A program made the translations under genes and the position numbers. Shown one piece after another: positions 5,984 through 20,707 of a stretch of DNA of 27,600 nt. The stretch is taken from positions 1-27,600 of IMG/VR virus record IMGVR_UViG_3300020395_000080. One strand, 5' to 3'. Position 1 is the first letter of the stretch. The number at the start of each line of letters is the position of its first letter. This DNA is from a virus. The notes under the pieces are model-generated. The model saw only the letters and a program-made list of their open reading frames with translations. It had not been told where the DNA came from and searched no databases.

Positions 5984-6437
5984 CGGTTGAAAAACTAAGT
6001 GATACTCTAGGTCCATGATTAAATGGGTGATGATAAACATAGGCAGGTATGAAGATAGCATCTCCAGGTCTTAACCTATGACATACACCAGTATCAAATT
6101 TGTATGAGGTTTCTCCTATTGCTTGTACAATAAAAACGTCCATGTCATCATTATGACGACCGAACGTATCTGATAATTTACTGAAGGAAATATAGGTATG
6201 CATACAATTCATACCTACATCCTCTATTACTGCTTCGTATATTGGCATTATATTAGGTGGGACATATTGTCCTGTGCCAACTATTACTGGGAGAATTTTA
6301 TCAGGCCATTTCTCGTTAGAATACCCCCAATCTCCATCTAATACATCTTCATCTAGTTTCTGGATTACATCATCCCATGTCACATCAGGAATGGGATAAT
6401 ATTGTTGTATAAATTCAACTCCTTCACTAGATAGCAT
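5970..6437 (-). CDS. Cupin/JmjC-like protein, possible Fe(II)/2-oxoglutarate oxygenase (155 aa)
   Basis: The product shows the JmjC/cupin pattern: H95-N-D97 (in GRHNDDMDVF), a K113, then the RPGD turn at 123-126 followed by AIFIPAYVYHHPFNHGPRVS, with H136/H137 as the likely distal metal ligand and a closing S-L-S-F-S strand. In the family these residues bind Fe(II) and 2-oxoglutarate for hydroxylation of a protein or small molecule. At 155 aa it is short, close to a minimal double-stranded beta-helix. The N-terminal 60 residues have no recognised domain. It begins 11 nt before the end of talC, so it is translated from the same mRNA. The substrate is unknown; a cupin without oxygenase activity is the alternative. 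Confidence 0.65.
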   Translation of the reverse strand: MLSSEGVEFIQQYYPIPDVTWDDVIQKLDEDVLDGDWGYSNEKWPDKILPVIVGTGQYVPPNIMPIYEAVIEDVGMNCMHTYISFSKLSDTFGRHNDDMDVFIVQAIGETSYKFDTGVCHRLRPGDAIFIPAYVYHHPFNHGPRVSLSFSTDGRY

Positions 6438-7146
6438 CTAAATCTCCACCATGTCTTACACCTGCTGCATATGCAGGTGGTTGGAAGGGTTCCCGATTAA
6501 TAGTATTCTGGACTTCTGCCCAATCAGCATCAAATAATTCTAATCCCTTATCAGTAAGCACATGCTTATATAAGTTACTGAATATTTTAGGTGGCATGGT
6601 AACAACGTGTGCACCATTCCAGAATGAGCGAGTCACCTTATATGCGTCACGAATAGATGCTGCAAGTATTTGAGTCTTTGCTCCTTGCACTCTATACACT
6701 TCACTTATTGATCTGACAACCTCCAATCCAGCCACGCTATTGTCATCCAACCTCCCAATAAAAGGAGAGACGTACGTAGCACCTGCCTTTGCAGATAAGA
6801 TAGCCTGAGCAGCATTGAATATAAGCGTAACATTAACTTTGATTCCCTCTTCTGATAGAATTTTACATGCTCCGAGTCCTTCTCTAGTGCATGGTACTTT
6901 TATTGTAGCAACGTCACCAAATTTCTTTGATAAACGTAAACCTTCCTGTAACATTTCTTCGGCATCACCCACTACCTCCATAGAGATATCTGGTACACCA
7001 ATGTCCTTTATTTCAGAATAGACATCCTCTGGATTTCTACCTGACTTCATAATAAGTGTGGGGTTAGTTGTTACCCCATCAACGAGACCTGTTGCAAACT
7101 CCCCTCTAATGATGGAAGTCTCAGCAGTATCGAGGAATATTTTCAT
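6427..7146 (-). CDS. talC: Transaldolase (TalC type, cyanophage auxiliary metabolic gene)
   Basis: A 239-aa TIM-barrel aldolase of the short TalC/fructose-6-phosphate aldolase family. It begins MKIFLDTA with D6, has the TTNPTL motif at 26-31 and the Schiff-base lysine K83 in ATIKVPCT. Residue E57 in the SMEVV strand is the Glu typical of transaldolases rather than the Gln of fructose-6-phosphate aldolase, so transfer of the dihydroxyacetone unit between sedoheptulose-7-phosphate and glyceraldehyde-3-phosphate is expected. The C-terminal 20 or so residues (from about PFQPPAYAAG) extend beyond the usual family length of about 215. Cyanophage TalC is established as a phage-encoded enzyme that favours the pentose phosphate pathway during infection. 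Its ATG overlaps the upstream stop (ATGA), and it overlaps the cupin gene by 11 nt. Reads with the CP12-like gene at 11889. Confidence 0.96.
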   Translation of the reverse strand: MKIFLDTAETSIIRGEFATGLVDGVTTNPTLIMKSGRNPEDVYSEIKDIGVPDISMEVVGDAEEMLQEGLRLSKKFGDVATIKVPCTREGLGACKILSEEGIKVNVTLIFNAAQAILSAKAGATYVSPFIGRLDDNSVAGLEVVRSISEVYRVQGAKTQILAASIRDAYKVTRSFWNGAHVVTMPPKIFSNLYKHVLTDKGLELFDADWAEVQNTINREPFQPPAYAAGVRHGGDLDAI

Positions 7147-12145: not shown

Positions 12146-13582
12146 CAAAGAGTCCCTAATTAACAGCAATTCAGTACTAAGACCTTCTTTTTCATAGGTA
12201 TGTGTTAGAGCCGCAACAACATATAATCCTGAAAACTTCTTGTCTTGTTTGACTGTAGTATCAGATTCTTGTCGTGAAGCTGGAATGATTACCTTGATTT
12301 TATATCCTGCACCTATCCCTGTATTACCTGGTATCTTTACCTTTAACTGTATCGATTTAAGTAAATTATACCTCCCACTAGCATATTGTGCAACTGCCAT
12401 CGCATCTATGTCAGGGTTTCCACCCGTACCAACATTAGTCTTTCCAGGTGGTAACTTAGTACCTTTAGGTTGATTCTTCATACCAGGAAGAGCACGGAGT
12501 TTCATCCTAGTAGGTTGACTGTTATCAAAAAACTCTGGTAACTTATAAGGTGGTACCTTCTCTACAGTAGTTGCCTTACCAAATATACCCATCATCTCAA
12601 TCTCGAATGCCTGACCAACGGTACCACCTGGGGACGTTGTATTATCACTGACGTTATCACTACCACCATCACCTGACTTACTACCTGAAGTGGGAGTGAA
12701 ACTAGCAGACTGCACTGGTAATGCTATACCTATAGCAGCAGACTTATATGTACCCCTCCTCATATTCTGAAGATGATTTGCTTTATCTGGATAGTCTATA
12801 GATTCAATACCATAAACACCACCATCAGCAGGGTCAGTACCTGGCTGCACGTAAGTATAGGTGTAGATATATTTGGTAGCACCACCATCAGCAATGGAGT
12901 CTATAGATTTAAAATTAAACCCATTCCTATTCTCAAAGAATAAGTATCCAGACTGTTTAACAGCCCCTTTACTACCAGTCAACCTAGTTACCTTATCAGT
13001 CATGTATGCTATAGCATCACTAGGTTTCCAGTTACATGATATGTAAGTAATCTTAGAATGATTCTCAAAGTTTTCAGATACTGCCTTCTTACCTGCCTTT
13101 AGATACTCCTTACAGATATGCAGAGGAATATTCTCTACATCCTTAGACCCTTTACCTGGACCAAATGCTTTTAATATCTTAGTCATTTCATCATGGAACA
13201 TCTCAGGAGATACACAATACAGATTATACATCTGTCCTCTCTCAGACTTAATGATGTCACCTATCTTATAGACCTGTAACTTTACCTGTAGAGGTATCCT
13301 CTTAGGATCCTTTGCTCCTTCTTCAGAGATTGCACTAGCAGTCTCTATATCCAATTCTATTGTCTCTGCACCCTGCAATAACTCATTGAAATCTATTGCA
13401 TCTATCATAGTAAACTCAGCACGTAAGAATGATGATTCTATTGACTCATAGTATTTAAACTGAGCCACCATGTCCCTGATATCATAGACATCATCGTTCA
13501 TCATGGTAATCTGCATCTTAGTGATTACCATCTCAGCATTGTTACGAGCTGGTGCGTAGGTTGTCTTCTTTACCTGTGACAT
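12137..13582 (-). CDS. Baseplate hub protein, gp27/gpD-like by position and C-terminal motif (481 aa)
   Basis: The product begins MSQVKKTTYAPARNNAEMVI and has strand-rich segments such as YYESIESSFLRAEFTMIDA (a two-layer hub-domain feature), LLQGAETIELDIET and MYNLYCVSPEMFHDEMTKIL. The C-terminus FSGLYVVAALTHTYEKEGLS followed by a TELLLIRD strand resembles the closing strands of contractile-tail hub proteins (gp27, Mu gp44, P2 gpD). A disordered G/S-rich stretch lies near 300-320. In T4 gp27 is 391 aa, forms the ring beneath the tube and carries gp5. The place between tape-measure-like genes and gp5 fits the standard order tape measure, hub, spike. gp27 homology is inferred, not plain. Start overlaps the upstream stop by one base (TAATG). 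Confidence 0.65.
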   Translation of the reverse strand: MSQVKKTTYAPARNNAEMVITKMQITMMNDDVYDIRDMVAQFKYYESIESSFLRAEFTMIDAIDFNELLQGAETIELDIETASAISEEGAKDPKRIPLQVKLQVYKIGDIIKSERGQMYNLYCVSPEMFHDEMTKILKAFGPGKGSKDVENIPLHICKEYLKAGKKAVSENFENHSKITYISCNWKPSDAIAYMTDKVTRLTGSKGAVKQSGYLFFENRNGFNFKSIDSIADGGATKYIYTYTYVQPGTDPADGGVYGIESIDYPDKANHLQNMRRGTYKSAAIGIALPVQSASFTPTSGSKSGDGGSDNVSDNTTSPGGTVGQAFEIEMMGIFGKATTVEKVPPYKLPEFFDNSQPTRMKLRALPGMKNQPKGTKLPPGKTNVGTGGNPDIDAMAVAQYASGRYNLLKSIQLKVKIPGNTGIGAGYKIKVIIPASRQESDTTVKQDKKFSGLYVVAALTHTYEKEGLSTELLLIRDSLPK

Positions 13583-16080
13583 TACATTAACTCCACGGGC
13601 TCAGTCATAGCATCAGCAATGACCCCAAACTTAGGTCTAACGAATTTATCTGAGTCTAAATGTTTCTTACCTGGAAGTACAATTGCTTGCTGCTTACCTG
13701 CACCACCTAGAGTAATAGGTTCCCCACTCTCATTAATAGTATAATTCTCAGGGTTATGCATAGCACCATGTATCTTCTGGAACTTCTCTACCTGTTTCTT
13801 AATTCTTGCTTCATTGATCTGGTTACCAACATTATCCTTTAATCTCTTAGCACCATCCAGAACATTACCACGTCCATCCAGATCAAACAGATTACCAGTC
13901 ATCATGTCAGCAGCACCTGCCATCCATCTCATCAGACCACCAGGTTTTCCTTCCTCATTCTTCTGATTTATTACATTCTTTATACCATCCTTCATGTCAC
14001 CACGTTTGTCAAAATCAAACGCATTACCAGTTAACATATCAGCATACCCTGCTAGGACTCTCTTCATCCCAGTAGGTCTGTCTTCACCTTTAGGTTTACT
14101 TACCTTCTTAACTATAGCAACAGTGCCACCCTGTGCAAATGATGGAGCAAGTTTATCAACATTGACATTATATACAGGTCCACCTATGGAATAAGGTAAA
14201 CTATACCCACCTCTAGCAGCTTCACCCATTCTCCGACTGGTGAGAGAACTATCCTTTCTTGTAGCAGGAGTGTCGAATGGTACCACAAATGCTCTACCAC
14301 CTGACTTTCTTCCTACCCACTCTTTACCATGCCCAATGAATGAGGTTTGCTTACCATCTAATGATACTGGGTAACCAGACTGAGGACCATTAATCCATCC
14401 ACCCTTGGCGAAATCCATATCACCATACTTCTCTTTTGCTTGTTCTGATGTTAATATTTCCCATCCACCATTCGCTCTATTTGCTTCGAGACGTGCTATC
14501 TGATCTTCATACACCTTTCTTTCTTCATCATCCATACCACGATGCATTCTCATCCTAACCTTAGCAATCCTTAGATCAGTCTCCTTATCGGCAGTCATAT
14601 CACCAGTATACTCTCGCTTCCCTGTCTCTGGATTAAAGGATGCGGTACCCTTGCTACTGCTCTTAGTTACTGTCGTGTCTGTCTGTGTTTCTTCTCCTCC
14701 ACCACCTACTTCATCCTTAGGACCTGCGTCCTTCATAAAGAATTTCATAATAGCAGTCAATGCTTTCATACCCATTATCAGTGGGAAGAACATTACTTTA
14801 AAACCTGTACCTAATATCTTAGTAATGAGTGGCATATGTGGTTCAATTGCTGCCAATATCTTCGACATAAAAGCACCAAGAGTCTTGAAGAACTGCTCAA
14901 AAGGTTCCTTTATCTGTCCTATGACATCATTAAATACCTTACTGACCATACCAAACCATTCTTTCAATGGTCCGATAATGGGTTCTAGCATCTTACCGAT
15001 ACCCTTACCTATCTTACTTCCCGCTAATCCTCCAAGTGCTCCACCTATTGCTCCCGCACCTGGAATACCAGTAGCAGCACCAAGTTTAGCACCGATCATC
15101 TGACCTGCACCCGCACCAACACCCGCACCAACTGCTTCTGCTCCACTACCACCTGCTGCTAACGTTGCCATTGCAGCACCAGTACCAACTAGAGCTCCGT
15201 TAAGAAGTTTACCATACTTACCAACAGAAAACTTTCGCATCTTCTGTCCTGCCTTGGTAAATTTCATCATGTTCATGATGCCCTTACCTAGGGATCCAAC
15301 CACCCACTTCAATGCTTTAAGTGTTGCTAGTGGTTTCTTAAGGAATGCAAACCCTAAGAATATAGGTGCAGCACCTATTAAAAACTGTGCAAGACCAAAG
15401 ATACCTTTAAGACTTATAGGATTCTCTAAGAATTTTGTAATACCATCCAGAGCTGTCCCTGCTGACCATGCTAGTACATTATATACAAACTTACCTATAG
15501 CAGCAAACCCCTGAGCAAGTTTCTGGACTTTATCTGGATTCTTACTCACCCAATCTAGTATCTTATATCCTAGTAATAAAGGTATAGCCCAACGTATTAA
15601 TTTTAAGAGTCCACCAAACAGTCCACCTATCCCTGCTTTAGCACCCTCCTTGAACATCGTCTTGATCTTCTTAAAGAGTGGTTGCTTACCTTCATTATTC
15701 TTCTCTGTCTCTTCTCTGGCTAAAAGTTTTCTTCTCTTCTCTTCTGCTTTCTCTCTATCTGTCTCTCTCTTAAGTTTTAACCTCTTATACTTGTCTTCTT
15801 TCTTAGTGAGAGCAGCATTATCTGATATCTGTGACTTAATACTATCTCTCCATCCCTCTAACATGTTCTGGGAATTGATAGAGATACTGTTCAGGGTAGC
15901 ACCAAGGGAGTTAAGACCCCTTGTCATCGCACCCATACCTGTATTAAAAGACTTCTTAAACTTACCCATCTCAGCAGCTGCTGTTAGGGGAGTATATTTT
16001 GTAGCACCAGAAGTTGCACCCTTATAAGATATCATCTTATAGAGTGTTGCCTTTTGTACTTTAACTGCGGGTGTTGCCAT
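13582..16080 (-). CDS. Large tail protein, tape-measure-like, paralogue of the next gene upstream (832 aa)
   Basis: Residues 95-135 are a charged, coiled-coil-prone stretch. From about 145 hydrophobic segments follow: GIGGLFGGLLKLIRWAIPLL, ILDWVSKNPDKVQKL (174-188) and a glycine-zipper region near 300-360 (GAEAVGAGVGAGAGQMIGAK). The C-terminal part has a FAKGGWINGP motif, FIGHGKEWVGRKSGGRAFVV and PFDTPATR, a pattern of tape-measure C-termini (GG, GHG/GE, then V-G). Two 28-aa repeats lie at 672-700 and 717-744. No gp29 homologue is visible elsewhere in this window, and the gene follows the gp26-like chaperone region, so a tape-measure or tape-measure-associated role is inferred. The alternative is a structural protein of the tail lumen with no length-setting role. 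Confidence 0.65.
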   Translation of the reverse strand: MATPAVKVQKATLYKMISYKGATSGATKYTPLTAAAEMGKFKKSFNTGMGAMTRGLNSLGATLNSISINSQNMLEGWRDSIKSQISDNAALTKKEDKYKRLKLKRETDREKAEEKRRKLLAREETEKNNEGKQPLFKKIKTMFKEGAKAGIGGLFGGLLKLIRWAIPLLLGYKILDWVSKNPDKVQKLAQGFAAIGKFVYNVLAWSAGTALDGITKFLENPISLKGIFGLAQFLIGAAPIFLGFAFLKKPLATLKALKWVVGSLGKGIMNMMKFTKAGQKMRKFSVGKYGKLLNGALVGTGAAMATLAAGGSGAEAVGAGVGAGAGQMIGAKLGAATGIPGAGAIGGALGGLAGSKIGKGIGKMLEPIIGPLKEWFGMVSKVFNDVIGQIKEPFEQFFKTLGAFMSKILAAIEPHMPLITKILGTGFKVMFFPLIMGMKALTAIMKFFMKDAGPKDEVGGGGEETQTDTTVTKSSSKGTASFNPETGKREYTGDMTADKETDLRIAKVRMRMHRGMDDEERKVYEDQIARLEANRANGGWEILTSEQAKEKYGDMDFAKGGWINGPQSGYPVSLDGKQTSFIGHGKEWVGRKSGGRAFVVPFDTPATRKDSSLTSRRMGEAARGGYSLPYSIGGPVYNVNVDKLAPSFAQGGTVAIVKKVSKPKGEDRPTGMKRVLAGYADMLTGNAFDFDKRGDMKDGIKNVINQKNEEGKPGGLMRWMAGAADMMTGNLFDLDGRGNVLDGAKRLKDNVGNQINEARIKKQVEKFQKIHGAMHNPENYTINESGEPITLGGAGKQQAIVLPGKKHLDSDKFVRPKFGVIADAMTEPVELM
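13849..14067 (-). repeat. Tandem 28-residue repeat inside the 832-aa tail protein
   Basis: Two in-frame segments, 13981-14067 and 13849-13932, encode related units: KRVLAGYADMLTGNAFDFDK and MRWMAGAADMMTGNLFDLDG, followed by RGDMKDGI and RGNVLDGA. Sixteen of 28 residues are identical and the units start 45 codons apart. The DNA has diverged more than the protein, so the duplication is old. Confidence 0.7.
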
Positions 16081-16083
16081 CTA

Positions 16084-18504
16084 TTAACAACTCAACATTG
16101 GTGAAGGTTTAGTGTATACAACTTTAGTTGCACCGCTTCCCTGGTTATTTATTATGGGCTGAAGGACTTTCCTTGTAATAGTGATAACCTGTGGTGCAAT
16201 GTCATCCATTGCCTCCTCAGCGAAGTGGTACTCAGTCATTTCTTTAGCAGCATCCCTATCCTTAACCATCATTTCCATTTGAATGTTGGTAGGGACACCA
16301 GTATGATGTATAGAAGGTTCTGGAGTTGGTACTATAGGAGTTTCACCACCCTTGGAGAAATTCTCATTGTATATTGAGTATGCTCTTACCTTCTTATTAC
16401 CTTCTGAATCAGTATAAACTAAGTCATAGTCTTTTAAGAACTTCTTATACTCAGTCTCCACACGTTTGTTCGTCAGTTTCGCTGCAACACTATTATTAAG
16501 TATTGGATAAAGTATTCTAGGATGTATCTTACCTTCTAAGGATCCACCTGGAAGTATATCTCTAATAGTATGATGAGGTTTCGCTTTCTTGAGTGCTATC
16601 AACTCATCCATAATATCCTTATTATGTTTTATCAGTTGATGTAGATCAATTGACCCAAGATGCTCTTCATATTCTTCGGAAGATGATACATCAACTACTT
16701 CTCCATTAAGGGTCTTCTCAATATGCTTAGTTCTCAACTGCTGCCAACTATAAACGAATTGATCTGGTGTAGGTCTACCAACGTAGTCAGTAATCTTAAC
16801 AGGTCCAGGGTTTCCACCACCAGCTAAACTTTTAACTAATTTAATAGCACCACCTGCTGCTGCATAAAATACAGGTACATTACGTTTAACAATTTTTACC
16901 TCTCCACCTTCTGCCTTCTCCTCTGCCAGGTCAACATTAGCACCTGGATCCTTACCTCTTATAACTCTCCATGCAAACCCTATAGGATTAGCTGCGAACG
17001 CTATCATATTCTTGACAGCACCTATAACCATGCCAATAATCTTCCCTATCAATGATATAGCAGGTCCCATCACTATCTTAATGAAGTTACCTAGTGGTGC
17101 GAGTATGGTCATTAACCATTGACCTAACTTACCAACAAACTTGAATAAGGTACCAAGGAAATCCCAGTAACCAGTCTCTTTCATTAAACCCTTCACCAGA
17201 TCCCACAACATCCTAAACATCTTACCAATAGGTTCAAATAGTGGTTTGATTACTGGTAAGAATGTCTTACCTACCCACTCACCTAAGAAACTACCAATAG
17301 CATTACCCACTATAGGTGCAAATGGTCCTAAGAATGGTCCTAATAATGCAGTACCAGCAGCAGCACCTAACATACCACCTGCTGCCTGTCCAATACCTGC
17401 ACCTACTGCTTCAGTTGCATCCTCTCCACTCTGTATACCTGAGAAAATACGTGTTGCACCACCTAAAATAGCAACACCTTTCATCATTCCAGGGGAAGAT
17501 AACTTACCACCAATCCCCTTCATCTTCTTACCAATTACACCCTTACCCTTTCTCCACTTCTTTAATGCACCTGCTTTGAGGTTACGTCCTCTCTGTTTAA
17601 CAGTAGGACCTACTCTCTGTTGGAATGCATTTTCTTTACCTGCACGACGTGCAGACTTACGCATATTTTTATATTCTTTCTCTGAATATATTACTCCTGT
17701 CTTTTTATCCTTATATCCTTTCTTCCTCCAAGCTGCCTGTGCTTCTGCTTCTCCCTGTTGATCTGCTTGACCACCAAATACATCTTTCAATCTATTAACA
17801 TCAGTTATCAACTTCCATGGCATCACCATGTAGGATGCAAACCTTAATGCTGCAATACCAGATGCAAGTTGAAGGAAACCTCCCATAAATCTGAAAGTCC
17901 TCTTAATTGGACCTTCATCAAATCCCTTACCAAATAGATTGGTAAGACCATCCATCACCTTATTAATACCAAACCCTACTACCGCCCAACCAAATTTAGC
18001 GATAGCAAATATTGCTTTAAATACTTTCTGAGCTTTCTCTGGGCTCTTTGATAACCAATCCAAAACACCCATTGCTAGGAAGAATTTGAATATAGGTGTT
18101 AAGAATCCAGTAATCATCCCCAGAAAGGATTTCATCGGACCTTTAGCTTCTTTCTTCTTCTTATCTACATCCTTATCAGCATCTTTCTCACCTTCCTCTG
18201 CTGCATTCTCAGTCTCCTTTCGTCTATTCCTCCTGAACATGCGAACAAAACGAGAGAGAAAACCTCTATGTTTCTTCTTATCGTCTTTATCTTCTAAATT
18301 AGCAGTATCTACGTCTGTCTCTTGCTTATCTGCTAACCACTCTTTCTCAAACTTTATTAGTTTATGTGTCTCAACATAGTTCTTACCAATAGACTCAGTA
18401 ACTTTACCAGTCTGATTAATACCTTTACGAAGCTCGTTAAAACCATCCGTGAAAGCTCCCTTCTCGGATATAGGTTTAATTTTAACGTAACTACGGATGG
18501 ACAT
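16084..18504 (-). CDS. Large tail protein, tape-measure-like, paralogue of the 832-aa gene (806 aa)
   Basis: The first 120 residues are hydrophilic and highly charged (many K, R, E, D), followed by hydrophobic segments near 125-147 and VLDWLSKSPEKAQKVFKAIF at 147-166, which aligns with ILDWVSKNPDKVQKL of the next gene. A glycine-zipper region (EAVGAGIGQAAGGMLGAAAG) again matches its neighbour. The C-terminal third differs: it has AAAGGAIKLVKSLAGGGNPG, a KITDYVGRPTPDQFVYSWQQ segment and ends in SPMLSC. The two genes are tandem duplicates that have diverged. Position right after the gp26-like gene and the 61-aa ORF favours a tape-measure-type role in the tail lumen. No clear Shine-Dalgarno; start and upstream stop are adjacent. 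Confidence 0.65.
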   Translation of the reverse strand: MSIRSYVKIKPISEKGAFTDGFNELRKGINQTGKVTESIGKNYVETHKLIKFEKEWLADKQETDVDTANLEDKDDKKKHRGFLSRFVRMFRRNRRKETENAAEEGEKDADKDVDKKKKEAKGPMKSFLGMITGFLTPIFKFFLAMGVLDWLSKSPEKAQKVFKAIFAIAKFGWAVVGFGINKVMDGLTNLFGKGFDEGPIKRTFRFMGGFLQLASGIAALRFASYMVMPWKLITDVNRLKDVFGGQADQQGEAEAQAAWRKKGYKDKKTGVIYSEKEYKNMRKSARRAGKENAFQQRVGPTVKQRGRNLKAGALKKWRKGKGVIGKKMKGIGGKLSSPGMMKGVAILGGATRIFSGIQSGEDATEAVGAGIGQAAGGMLGAAAGTALLGPFLGPFAPIVGNAIGSFLGEWVGKTFLPVIKPLFEPIGKMFRMLWDLVKGLMKETGYWDFLGTLFKFVGKLGQWLMTILAPLGNFIKIVMGPAISLIGKIIGMVIGAVKNMIAFAANPIGFAWRVIRGKDPGANVDLAEEKAEGGEVKIVKRNVPVFYAAAGGAIKLVKSLAGGGNPGPVKITDYVGRPTPDQFVYSWQQLRTKHIEKTLNGEVVDVSSSEEYEEHLGSIDLHQLIKHNKDIMDELIALKKAKPHHTIRDILPGGSLEGKIHPRILYPILNNSVAAKLTNKRVETEYKKFLKDYDLVYTDSEGNKKVRAYSIYNENFSKGGETPIVPTPEPSIHHTGVPTNIQMEMMVKDRDAAKEMTEYHFAEEAMDDIAPQVITITRKVLQPIINNQGSGATKVVYTKPSPMLSC

Positions 18505-18690
18505 CTACATTGACATTTTTCTTTCGTCTGCTTTTTGCCTACGCTCTTCCTCTTGGATATGAGCTAATAGCAGTTGTATATAAACATCACGTTCCCATGG
18601 TACCATATTCTCTAATTCAGTCAGAGAGTATTTGTGGTGCTGCATTAATGCGAAGTTAGTCCTAAAATAGTTTTCAAGACTGTCATGCAT
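18505..18690 (-). CDS. 61-aa ORF, probably the T-like extension of the gp26-like tail chaperone
   Basis: The frame encodes MHDSLENYFRTNFALMQHHK and continues with YSLTELENMVPWERDVYIQL and a charged helix (HIQEEERRQKADERK). It lies 5 nt after the stop of the gp26-like gene in the -1 frame, has no Shine-Dalgarno and is open back to the slippery site at 18702-18708. A -1 shift would join it to the gp26-like protein (233 + 4 + 61 residues, about 298 aa). In lambda the T domain is made only by such a shift, binds the tape measure and lies directly before it, as here. It could also be made separately from its own ATG by re-initiation. The stop is followed directly by the next ATG. Confidence 0.7.
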   Translation of the reverse strand: MHDSLENYFRTNFALMQHHKYSLTELENMVPWERDVYIQLLLAHIQEEERRQKADERKMSM

Positions 18691-18695
18691 TAACG

Positions 18696-19400
18696 CTACT
18701 CGAAAAAACTTGCTAGTCCCTCCAGTACCAACTCTGACTTGACCTTTGTCTTAGGATTAGTTACCTCTAATGTATAAGAGAGTTTAGGCATAGTCTCAAA
18801 GAAGTTTTGGATCTTACCAAACTGCTCTGAGTTTAGGTTCTCTAAGAAATCAAGTGCTTCCTTCTTAGTGAAAGAATCATATACTTCCTCCTTGTCATAC
18901 ACTTGGTTTATACAACCTGCTGCAAGTTGGAATACATCATCAAGTGAAGGTGTATCAGTTAGATTTTGTTGGACAAAAGTCTCCAATGAAGGATACTTCA
19001 TCTCAATACCAACACCACCACCAACATCAATCTTATTGTTATGTCCTTCAGGAATAACAACATCGACTTCTCCTAGTGGTACTTCAACTTTTACTTGAGT
19101 TTCTTCATCATCTGGGCATGTGACCTTAAATTCACTAACTTCACCAACTGCTGAAGCACGAATCTTCAAGAATATAAATTCAATCTCAAATGTTGCTAGG
19201 TCTTCAACTTTGGATTTCAGGTTGGTGCAGTTTCTAATGATTGTCTTCACTGCTTTCATCATTTGCTTGTCGTCTTGCGACTCCATAGCGAGATAAAGCA
19301 ATTTCTCTTCCTTAACTAGGAAGGGTCTATATGTAATTTTGCGACCTGTAATAGGCATCTCAGCTTCATATTCAGGTATGGCTAACTGTGGTAAAGGCAT
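18696..19400 (-). CDS. gp26: Baseplate hub / tail assembly protein, gp26-like (234 aa)
   Basis: Residues 1-60 read MPLPQLAIPEYEAEMPITGR, KITYRPFLVKEEKLLYLAME and SQDDKQMMKAVKTIIRNCT, the pattern of the T4-type baseplate protein family that includes gp26 (208 aa in T4). The middle has strand-rich IEFIFLKIRASAVGEVSEF and the end SYTLEVTNPKTKVKSELVLE. In T4 gp26 acts in assembly of the central baseplate hub. Here it stands before the tape-measure-like genes, the place of the G-type tail chaperone in other phages. Its last codons AGT TTT TTC GAG TAG contain the heptamer T TTT TTC. A CTAAATAG box lies about 20 nt upstream of the ATG. Confidence 0.8.
   Translation of the reverse strand: MPLPQLAIPEYEAEMPITGRKITYRPFLVKEEKLLYLAMESQDDKQMMKAVKTIIRNCTNLKSKVEDLATFEIEFIFLKIRASAVGEVSEFKVTCPDDEETQVKVEVPLGEVDVVIPEGHNNKIDVGGGVGIEMKYPSLETFVQQNLTDTPSLDDVFQLAAGCINQVYDKEEVYDSFTKKEALDFLENLNSEQFGKIQNFFETMPKLSYTLEVTNPKTKVKSELVLEGLASFFE
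18702..18708 (-). other. Candidate -1 programmed ribosomal frameshift site (TTTTTTC)
   Basis: On the minus strand T TTT TTC is in the right phase for a tandem -1 slip (X XXY YYZ), with the zero-frame stop two codons further on. After the slip the frame reads R-V-A-L and then the 61-aa ORF without a stop. No strong downstream hairpin was seen by eye. Confidence 0.65.
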
Positions 19401-19416
19401 AACAACTAATTATATG

Positions 19417-19974
19417 TTAACTATTTAGACGTGTATACTGACATGGTTGATCCTTATTCCAGAAATTGAAATTAAAGGAAATTATAGTCTTAGGTATATC
19501 TATCATGTTAGGGGGTGCTCTATGTATAAGAAAACTAGGAAATGCTACCACATCTCCCTCCTCTACATCTAACTCATGGACATCATCAGTAAATGGATCC
19601 CTATACTCTGTCTTAGGGGTACCACTTGGCATATCCAAATAATAAACACCACTAAATTGACAGTCATGGCAGTGCCAACTGTGATATTGGTCTTTCGTAT
19701 ATTGCTGATAGAAGAAAGTCCTTACTTCAAATCCCTGAAAGAATGCACCCTTCATCTCCCTAGTAAATTCTGTTAGGGTATCATATATCCTATCTTCTAC
19801 AAAATCCAGATATGGACGTGGTACATCTCTGTCTATATCATAATCAGACATAATATCAAGGTCATTTGCACGTATCCTTGCCTTCTGATTGTTAATAGCG
19901 ATCAGTGCAGAATCCTTAAACTCACTATGGTCCTTAATCTTCCTCTTGAAGATTGGACATTCAATTTTCATCAT
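19417..19974 (-). CDS. 2OG-Fe(II) oxygenase family protein (185 aa)
   Basis: The pattern of the 2-oxoglutarate/Fe(II) oxygenases of phages is clear: WHCHDCQFSGVYYLDMP at 100-116, with H101/H103 as the first metal ligand region; VEEGDVVAFPSFLIHRAPPN at 137-156 with H151 as the distal ligand; and a closing TIISFNFNFW strand at 163-172, where an Arg or Lys for 2OG is less clear. Such genes are common in T4-like cyanophages; their substrates are mostly unknown (protein prolines, lysines or small molecules). The start is MMK, with two adjacent Met codons. It lies between gp54-like and gp26-like genes and is likely transcribed with the tail genes, which hints at modification of a virion protein; that is speculation. 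Confidence 0.8.
   Translation of the reverse strand: MMKIECPIFKRKIKDHSEFKDSALIAINNQKARIRANDLDIMSDYDIDRDVPRPYLDFVEDRIYDTLTEFTREMKGAFFQGFEVRTFFYQQYTKDQYHSWHCHDCQFSGVYYLDMPSGTPKTEYRDPFTDDVHELDVEEGDVVAFPSFLIHRAPPNMIDIPKTIISFNFNFWNKDQPCQYTRLNS
19421..19428 (-). promoter_or_regulatory. Candidate late promoter (CTAAATAG) before gp26-like
   Basis: CTAAATAG on the minus strand overlaps the last codons of the oxygenase gene (in another phase than its stop) and lies 20 nt before the gp26-like ATG. Confidence 0.5.
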
Positions 19975-19975
19975 A

Positions 19976-20707
19976 TTAATAACCTACTTTTGCAACTTGT
20001 TTCTGGGATGTATCTGTTGATAATGCACTACCAAGATCAGTAAACTCATTTATATATGAGTCAGTATCACCACCCCATTTACCGTCATCTACTGTATCGA
20101 ATCTAAATCTCTCGTATGCAAACTGCACAGTCAACTTCTGTAGTTGTGTCTGCTCGTTATTCCATGTCATCCCTGATATATCTTTAGGGAATGCACCATA
20201 GAATTGCCATACTGCTGAAACTCTATTAAGTCTGGATCTTGCTACCTTACCTTCTTTAGTAAGACCTTCATATACTACGTTAGAACCTGTTTCCCACTTA
20301 AGTATGTTGATACTTGTCACATATTCATCATAAAAAGTTGCCCTATTCTCTCCATCATGTGCTGTATAGCTCATCCAGTTCTGGAAGATTGTGTTATGAA
20401 TCTGGTCTTTAGTAACAAGGAAATCAATACTTAAAGGACCATACTGGTTAACAGAATAGGCGAAATTCCTTGCTACACCTACATCTCTCTGTGTACCAGT
20501 CATAATTGCTTTACCAGGAACTACTACCTGATCAGCAAGATAACTAAGAGATTCGACTGCTTCTCTATAATCTGTCCTAATGGTATCAACCTTCTTTCTT
20601 AAGACGAAAGGTAGTGCCATATCAACTGTATACAGGTTTGATTTAGAAGGTTCTTTCCTACCTCCTCCAATCAACTGTCTAAATTTATCAAAACTATTAG
20701 TACTCAC
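19976..20707 (-). CDS. gp54: Tail tube-like protein, probably baseplate tube initiator gp54 (243 aa), GTG start
   Basis: The product has the gp19/gp54 tube-fold pattern: FDKFRQLIGGGRKEPSKSNL, DMALPFVLRKK, then LSYLADQVVVPGKAIMTGTQ, a YGPLSIDFLVTKDQ strand, and FYDEYVTSINILKWE before a closing strand LQKLTVQFAYERFRF. In T4 gp19 (163 aa) forms the tube and gp54 (320 aa) starts it on the baseplate; the length of 243 aa and the location beside gp4, gp48 and gp53 favour gp54. The frame starts with GTG at 20705-20707, whose second to fourth bases overlap the upstream stop (GTGA). A major tube protein is the alternative. Confidence 0.65.
   Translation of the reverse strand: MSTNSFDKFRQLIGGGRKEPSKSNLYTVDMALPFVLRKKVDTIRTDYREAVESLSYLADQVVVPGKAIMTGTQRDVGVARNFAYSVNQYGPLSIDFLVTKDQIHNTIFQNWMSYTAHDGENRATFYDEYVTSINILKWETGSNVVYEGLTKEGKVARSRLNRVSAVWQFYGAFPKDISGMTWNNEQTQLQKLTVQFAYERFRFDTVDDGKWGGDTDSYINEFTDLGSALSTDTSQKQVAKVGY

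Follow-up and report, generated by a model that had tools for sequence, protein, structure and literature searches.

The G/GT system of phage lambda pairs a short protein with a rare -1 extension of it, both acting with the tape measure and tail tube proteins, and G-T frameshifting of this kind is described in the available portions of PMC5009743 as widely conserved, with T4 as the exception. T4 gp26 and gp51 are listed in the accessible text of PMC3004832 as hub assembly chaperones, gp51 being required yet absent from the particle; the same text refers to genetic studies that support the presence of gp26 in the hub, a location that is not predicted by a pure chaperone model. For the Vandenendeviridae and Andersonviridae, a chaperone frameshift with a GTTTTT motif is reported in the portions of PMC12846349 available, and in the dnaX gene of E. 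coli an internal Shine-Dalgarno (SD) sequence, a slippery heptamer and a downstream hairpin are described together in the accessible parts of PMC5600365 and PMC7282821.

For the T4-like phages themselves, passages of two papers point to earlier work by Vladimirov et al. 2022, which is cited in PMC10885494 for the occurrence, in some T4-like phages, of a short gene along with a fused long one, and in PMC12846349 for poly-T signals of the shift in the chaperone genes of T4-like phages. Judging from these citing passages, the chaperone identity of gp26/gp51 is already in print (Vladimirov 2022), as some T4-like poly-T frameshift sites probably are (Vladimirov 2022). Where the initial annotation of the present locus knew of no earlier description, it was overtaken as to the chaperone identity; of the cyanophage frameshift no description appeared in the titles and abstract openings among the matches listed, and Vladimirov 2022 may contain one. 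Among the matches listed, to the extent of the text they gave, we also found no account of the three-part cassette, spread, covariation or Vi01-type variant described below.

From comparison of sequences, we consider it highly probable (a probability of about 0.88) that a lambda G/GT-type -1 frameshift yields a short gp26 and a long gp26-gp51 form of the chaperone in this marine T4-like phage and others of its kind. That the fusion arises by a -1 frameshift, with gp26 as a lambda-G-like chaperone, had been proposed from this one locus, and the comparative evidence presented here supports it.

The gene 26-51 locus and its proteins

The window, by which we mean the whole 27.6-kb virus record that was analysed, has its gene 26 homologue on the minus strand, with the following features around it:

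16084-18504, minus strand: tape-measure-like gene, 806 aa, directly downstream of the gp51 ORF (phrog_167, E 1.2e-10)
18505-18690, minus strand: 61-aa gp51-like ORF (phrog_634, E 5.7e-28)
18505-18702, minus strand: putative -1 frame extension (R-V-A-L plus the gp51 domain), which the slip would fuse to gp26; suggested by the open frame, the Ala-Leu of relatives and the L178 fusion
18639-18699, minus strand: downstream stem-loop (MFE -22 kcal/mol, z -4.5)
18696-19400, minus strand: gene 26-like ORF, 234 aa, proposed short tail assembly chaperone; stop codon TAG at 18696-18698
18702-18708, minus strand: slippery heptamer T TTT TTC, in the phase for a -1 tandem slip (0-frame X XXY YYZ)
18717-18722, minus strand: SD-like GAGGGA, its GAGG core ending 10 nt upstream of the heptamer
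19417-19974, minus strand: 2OG-Fe(II) oxygenase gene, 185 aa, between the tail tube-like gene and gp26 (PF13759)
19976-20707, minus strand: upstream tail tube-like gene, gp19 family (phrog_45 tail tube, E 1.3e-33)

The 3' end of gene 26 reads GGA CTA GCA AGT TTT TTC GAG TAG, so that the heptamer noted in the initial annotation does lie in the tandem -1 phase, with a single sense codon (GAG) between it and the stop. After a slip the frame reads R-V-A-L-M-H-D... and runs without a stop into the 61-aa ORF, again as annotated, to give a predicted fusion of 298 residues (233 + 4 + 61). The ORF at the end of this frame, which had been left anonymous, belongs to the gp51 family by its phrog_634 match; its reading as an unrelated gene was rejected on that ground. 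It also matches the C-terminal end of phrog_150 (positions 239-276, E 4.6e-4), the family that, together with PF12322, is matched by the gene 26-like ORF (E 1.6e-75 and 1.3e-69, respectively). By these matches the two window genes fit the gp26/gp51 family of T4.

The order of genes in the window (tail tube-like, oxygenase, gp26, gp51, tape-measure-like) places the pair as lambda G/GT is placed, and the succession on which the initial annotation had relied is seen there as gp26, gp51 and a tape-measure-like gene. The best profile matches of the 806-aa tape-measure-like gene are labelled endolysin or unknown, and stand above phrog_167 (tail length tape measure). A similar order of tail tube, gp26, gp51 and tape measure occurs in RHph_I1_18 and phiM12, where one more ORF precedes the tape measure, and the order is broken in Vi01 and PhiW-14. 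Several smaller observations concern the same neighborhood. In Melnitz-1, RHph_I1_18, phiM12 and AF3, gp51 is separated from the next large gene by an additional annotated ORF of about 110-140 aa (L088:2911-3240, L094:2875-3255, L096:2675-3094 and L099:2665-3093), and P-TIM40, unlike the oxygenase-bearing window, has no annotated gene between gp26 and the preceding gene. The window itself contains two large tandem genes on the minus strand, 13582-16080 and 16084-18504 (832 and 806 aa), both with matches to tape measure families and to families labelled "endolysin"; a second 2OG-Fe(II) oxygenase (PF13759; 25893-26522, minus strand) and a JmjC/cupin-like protein (PF08007; 5970-6437, minus strand); and a transaldolase-family gene of host-like metabolic type (6427-7146, minus strand; PF00923, E 4.4e-52).

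An AlphaFold2 model of the window gp26 (pLDDT 86.6) was aligned by VIA-align with 915 PDB chains, and its three top matches were 2OB9, which is the HK97 chaperone, 3FGX and 3KLU, with Z of 7.8, 7.8 and 7.2, the next match having 4.3. The chaperone-like alignment spans the first 85-95 of the 234 residues, and these Z values are below the guide value of 8. The accessible text of PMC9603447 describes all three entries as tail assembly chaperones, and a table of the same paper lists 3FGX and 3KLU as uncharacterised. In a Foldseek search of the PDB with the gp26 model, 2OB9 was not significant (E 1.5), so the structural match is taken as support for a chaperone identity and not as proof of it; a PDB sequence search with gp26 gave no match.

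The slippery site, its putative stimulators and the -1 frame

The comparative sample consists of 205 loci with a gp26 match out of 206 examined (44RR gave no match), and it is not a random one, since the loci came from scans seeded with five gp26 proteins (the best 80 at most for each), plus the window copy and 20 named records. The viral scan seeded with the gp26 of VmeM-32 found no relative. An in-phase T TTT TTN stands 0-9 codons before the stop in 182 of these 205 loci, and the -1 frame is open at 146 of 149 distinct junctions; conservation of these two features was the check that the initial annotation had proposed. All of the best 80 contig loci, whose gp26 is 54-100% identical to that of the window, have TTTTTTC with one codon to the stop. 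The 23 loci without a site are those of Vi01, phiEa2809, 18 Vi01-like contigs, Vibrio phage K445, T4 and a contig designated L178. Rhizobium phage RHph_I1_18 (L094:2001-2735) has T TTT TTA nine codons before its gp26 stop, the other site-bearing loci having theirs at 0-2 codons.

As a bare word the heptamer occurs at chance frequency, with 4 copies on the two strands of the window versus 5.05 expected; what goes beyond chance is its phase, its place and its conservation. At other ORF ends of the same loci (L001-L206), an in-phase run of six T within the last five codons was found in 2 of 943, and such a run followed by 40 open codons in the -1 frame in none of the 943, these ends being those of open stretches of at least 100 codons on both strands, many of which are not real genes. 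The 149 distinct junctions were selected for T TTT TTN and are mutually related; across them the leading T is supplied by five different codons, and the second codon of the heptamer is TTC in 139, TTT in 8, TTA in 1 and TTG in 1. Phe-Phe pairs elsewhere in the same genes are spelled TTT TTC in 6 of 148 cases, and 2 of the 148 form part of a T TTT TTY heptamer. A chance origin of the heptamer was rejected on the frequencies for other Phe-Phe pairs (2/148) and for other ORF ends (2/943).

Upstream of the heptamer, an SD-like core (GAGG, GGAG, AGGA or GAAGG) ends 8-10 nt before it in 136 of the 149 junctions, and the predicted anti-SD pairing of the 18 nt upstream averages -6.89 kcal/mol over all 149, as compared to -5.50 for synonymous shuffles (sd of the shuffle means, 0.11). 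Downstream, the stem of the window is built on a 10-bp outer helix (18687-18696 with 18642-18651) that begins 5 nt past the heptamer, is flanked on its outer side by a helix of 2 bp and encloses an inner one at 18672-18681 with 18658-18667; none of 200 shuffles was as stable. Over 146 junctions the mean z of the downstream stem is -2.22 for shuffles that keep the -1 protein, versus -0.41 for a control stretch further on, and for the loci L001-L037 it is -2.70 (n 26; shuffles keeping the -1-frame protein). Two site-bearing groups show no such excess, with mean z of -0.41 (L120-L126, n 6) and -0.10 (L127-L137, n 10), and RNAalifold found no structure common to the mixed alignment A1, in which the clade of the window is included; taken together, these results suggest that the form of the stem is clade-specific.

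In one clade, RNAalifold predicts a 7-bp stem from the alignment A3, which consists of 52 of the 86 rows of alignment A2, chosen by eye for one shared stem geometry, a choice that biases the percentage of paired cells upward. The covariation score of A3 is 0.155 versus 0.054 for shuffled alignments (reached by 0 of 500) and is at most 0.048 when the alignment is slid. Two further measures are not above shuffles, as nearly all of the signal comes from the single pair 21-35 (UA in 21, AU in 14 and GC in 14 of the 52 rows): pairs changed on both sides number 2, reached by 117 of 500 shuffles, and further pair types number 4, reached by 500 of 500. Of the ten named pairs, two are disrupted, one in 12 and the other in 14 of the 52 rows.

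Slippage of the transcribing polymerase on the T-run, and not of the ribosome, might also produce the fusion, and the run of six T, lengthened to seven or eight in some relatives (OC, Melnitz-1), lends itself to this explanation. Six T is short for transcriptional slippage, however, and in 139 of the 149 junctions a C follows the sixth T and ends the run; the codon phase, the spacing of the SD-like element and the downstream stem all fit ribosomal slippage. We regard the transcriptional route as scarcely credible.

Evidence that gp51 is read through the shift, by the proposed ribosomal frameshift, comes from the -1 frame itself, which is open for 56-69 codons in the 146 junctions, the remaining three being cut off by contig ends. 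It is here that the separate expression of gp51 has to be weighed, by which gp51 would be a small protein of its own made through re-initiation or coupling at the ATG past the gp26 stop, the T-run being incidental. In the window this ATG lies 5 nt past the TAG, an early in-frame ATG is present in 103 of the 149 junctions, and several database records annotate gp51 as a gene of its own. Yet at 35 of the 149 junctions the first ten -1 codons include neither ATG nor GTG nor TTG, and the SD-like element, placed 8-10 nt before the heptamer, sits in the window some 26 nt before the gp51 ATG. The codons ahead of the start also speak against this explanation. Among the 141 junctions with one codon before the stop, 64 with a start in the first codons were excluded, and of the 77 left, without a start in -1 codons 2-3, 65 read Ala-Leu by way of ten different codon pairs; an Ala-Leu kept through varying codons fits a translated sequence and not a spacer. 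The heptamer would not be expected to persist in 182 of 205 loci if it were incidental, and the gp51 of T4 and 44RR is a long form that carries a gp26-like N-domain. Re-initiation as the sole route was rejected on the startless junctions and the synonymously kept Ala-Leu, and we consider a wholly separate gp51 very improbable. An arrangement in which the fusion comes from frameshifting and, where there is an ATG, a certain amount of free gp51 is produced as well would be compatible with the frameshift reading, and the ATG in the window and in the 103 junctions would serve it; many relatives lack the ATG, however, its codon being replaced by Leu, Ala and others, and we hold a dual output of this sort to be unlikely.

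On the 236-kb contig L178, gp26 and gp51 form one in-frame gene (L178:1501-2391), and the model of the fused protein has a gp26 domain followed by a helical C-terminal part predicted at lower confidence. No short copy or second gp26 match was found on that contig; a single copy of gp26 was found in 26 of 28 records searched. By eye, the slip site of L178 lacks two bases relative to its relatives, reflecting either a true fusion or an assembly error.

By analogy with lambda G/GT, the proposed mechanism would run as follows. Gene 26 would encode the short tail assembly chaperone (TAC-N). A minority of ribosomes would slip back by one base at T TTT TTC, with a single codon left to the stop, aided by the internal SD-like element about 10 nt upstream and by the stem-loop a few nucleotides downstream, and would go on to translate the gp51 domain, giving the 298-aa long form (TAC-NC). 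Many short and few long copies may then coat the tape measure protein, as in lambda, with the gp51 (T-like) part recruiting tail tube subunits. We infer the slippage itself, the ratio of the two forms and their binding partners.

Distribution among phages and the exceptions

The site and the -1 extension are found together in the Kyanoviridae (P-TIM40, P-SSM4, ACG-2014d, OC, Melnitz-1 and ME01), in Straboviridae outside the T4 kind (VmeM-32, AS-zj and LPCS28), in the Pootjesviridae (AF3), and in phages YB07, D525, phiM12, PhiW-14 and RHph_I1_18; the extension of YB07 has no significant phrog_634 match. None of the 20 named records has a joined CDS at gp26/gp51 among the features listed.

The initial annotation had named homologues that keep the extension without a reachable slippery site as evidence against its proposal. 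Homologues that keep a gp51-like -1 frame without the heptamer do exist, namely Vi01, phiEa2809 and 18 Vi01-like contigs (L087, L092 and L102-L119), in which gp26 ends with ATT TTC. The 18 contigs were assigned to this kind by similarity (67-100%) and not by taxonomy. Vibrio phage K445 (L095) has an open -1 frame with CTT TTC. Neither the Vi01-like exceptions nor K445 has a canonical heptamer or a stable stem, the z for K445 being -1.49. Among the distinct junctions of the Vi01 and K445 kinds, 11 of 16 have no start codon before -1 codon 11. A single copy of gp26 was found in the four Vi01-kind records and K445 that were searched; of these five, all but K445 have a phrog_634 match at the gp26 stop. 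Our tree groups Vi01 and phiEa2809 with K445 and one Vi01-like contig in a single supported clade (100/99) that stands apart from the cyanophages.

T4 and 44RR have a short gene 26 and a separate, long gene 51. The product of the latter matches phrog_150 over nearly its full length and also phrog_634, and is in effect a natural long form. Of the 28 records searched, some of which are fragments, only these two hold two full phrog_150 copies. T4 gp26 ends with TTC TTT and has no heptamer. The tree, with its long branches and arbitrary root, does not place T4 gp26/gp51 as nested or otherwise among the frameshifting lineages.

We give even odds to a broader evolutionary reading, under which a dnaX-like three-part cassette in a single 26-51 gene would be ancestral to the T4-like superfamily; T4 and 44RR would have replaced the cassette by genes 26 (short) and 51 (long), and the lineage of the Ackermannviridae and K445 would express its -1 extension by a non-canonical NTT TTC shift without a stem-loop. 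If this is true, the two hub chaperones of T4 would be frozen products of one frameshifting gene.

Comparison with known frameshifting systems

Cyanophages are very abundant marine viruses, and in four named cyanophage records and two Kyanoviridae records gp51 is given as a separate small protein or as hypothetical, or is left without annotation. In all likelihood it forms the C-terminal end of a chaperone made by frameshifting. Many annotations would be corrected if gp26 and gp51 were joined; the exception made for T4 from the lambda G/GT rule would then be confined to phages of the T4/44RR kind, and the origin of T4's two hub chaperones would be open to a clean test.

The frameshift of the Vandenendeviridae and Andersonviridae resembles that proposed for the window in its poly-T -1 site, close to where the short gene ends, and its open -1 frame before the tape measure, and differs in occurring in other phage families and in that an SD-like element and a stem-loop go unmentioned in the available portions of PMC12846349. 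With T4 gp26/gp51, the window shares the families PF12322/phrog_150 and phrog_634, whereas T4 has two separate, divergent genes and no heptamer.

The likeness to the dnaX cassette lies in its three parts, since the window has the heptamer, a GAGG core 10 nt upstream of it and a main helix 5 nt downstream, and the spacings of the elements in dnaX are similar. The dnaX site is A AAA AAG, however, and lies in a host gene, and the shift there gives a shorter product and not an extension. Lambda G/GT provides the counterpart in that respect, having a short form with a -1 extension before the tape measure, as is proposed for the window, and the window departs from it in its protein family (PF12322), in the use of T TTT TTC with a single codon left to the stop, and in the added SD-like element and stem-loop.
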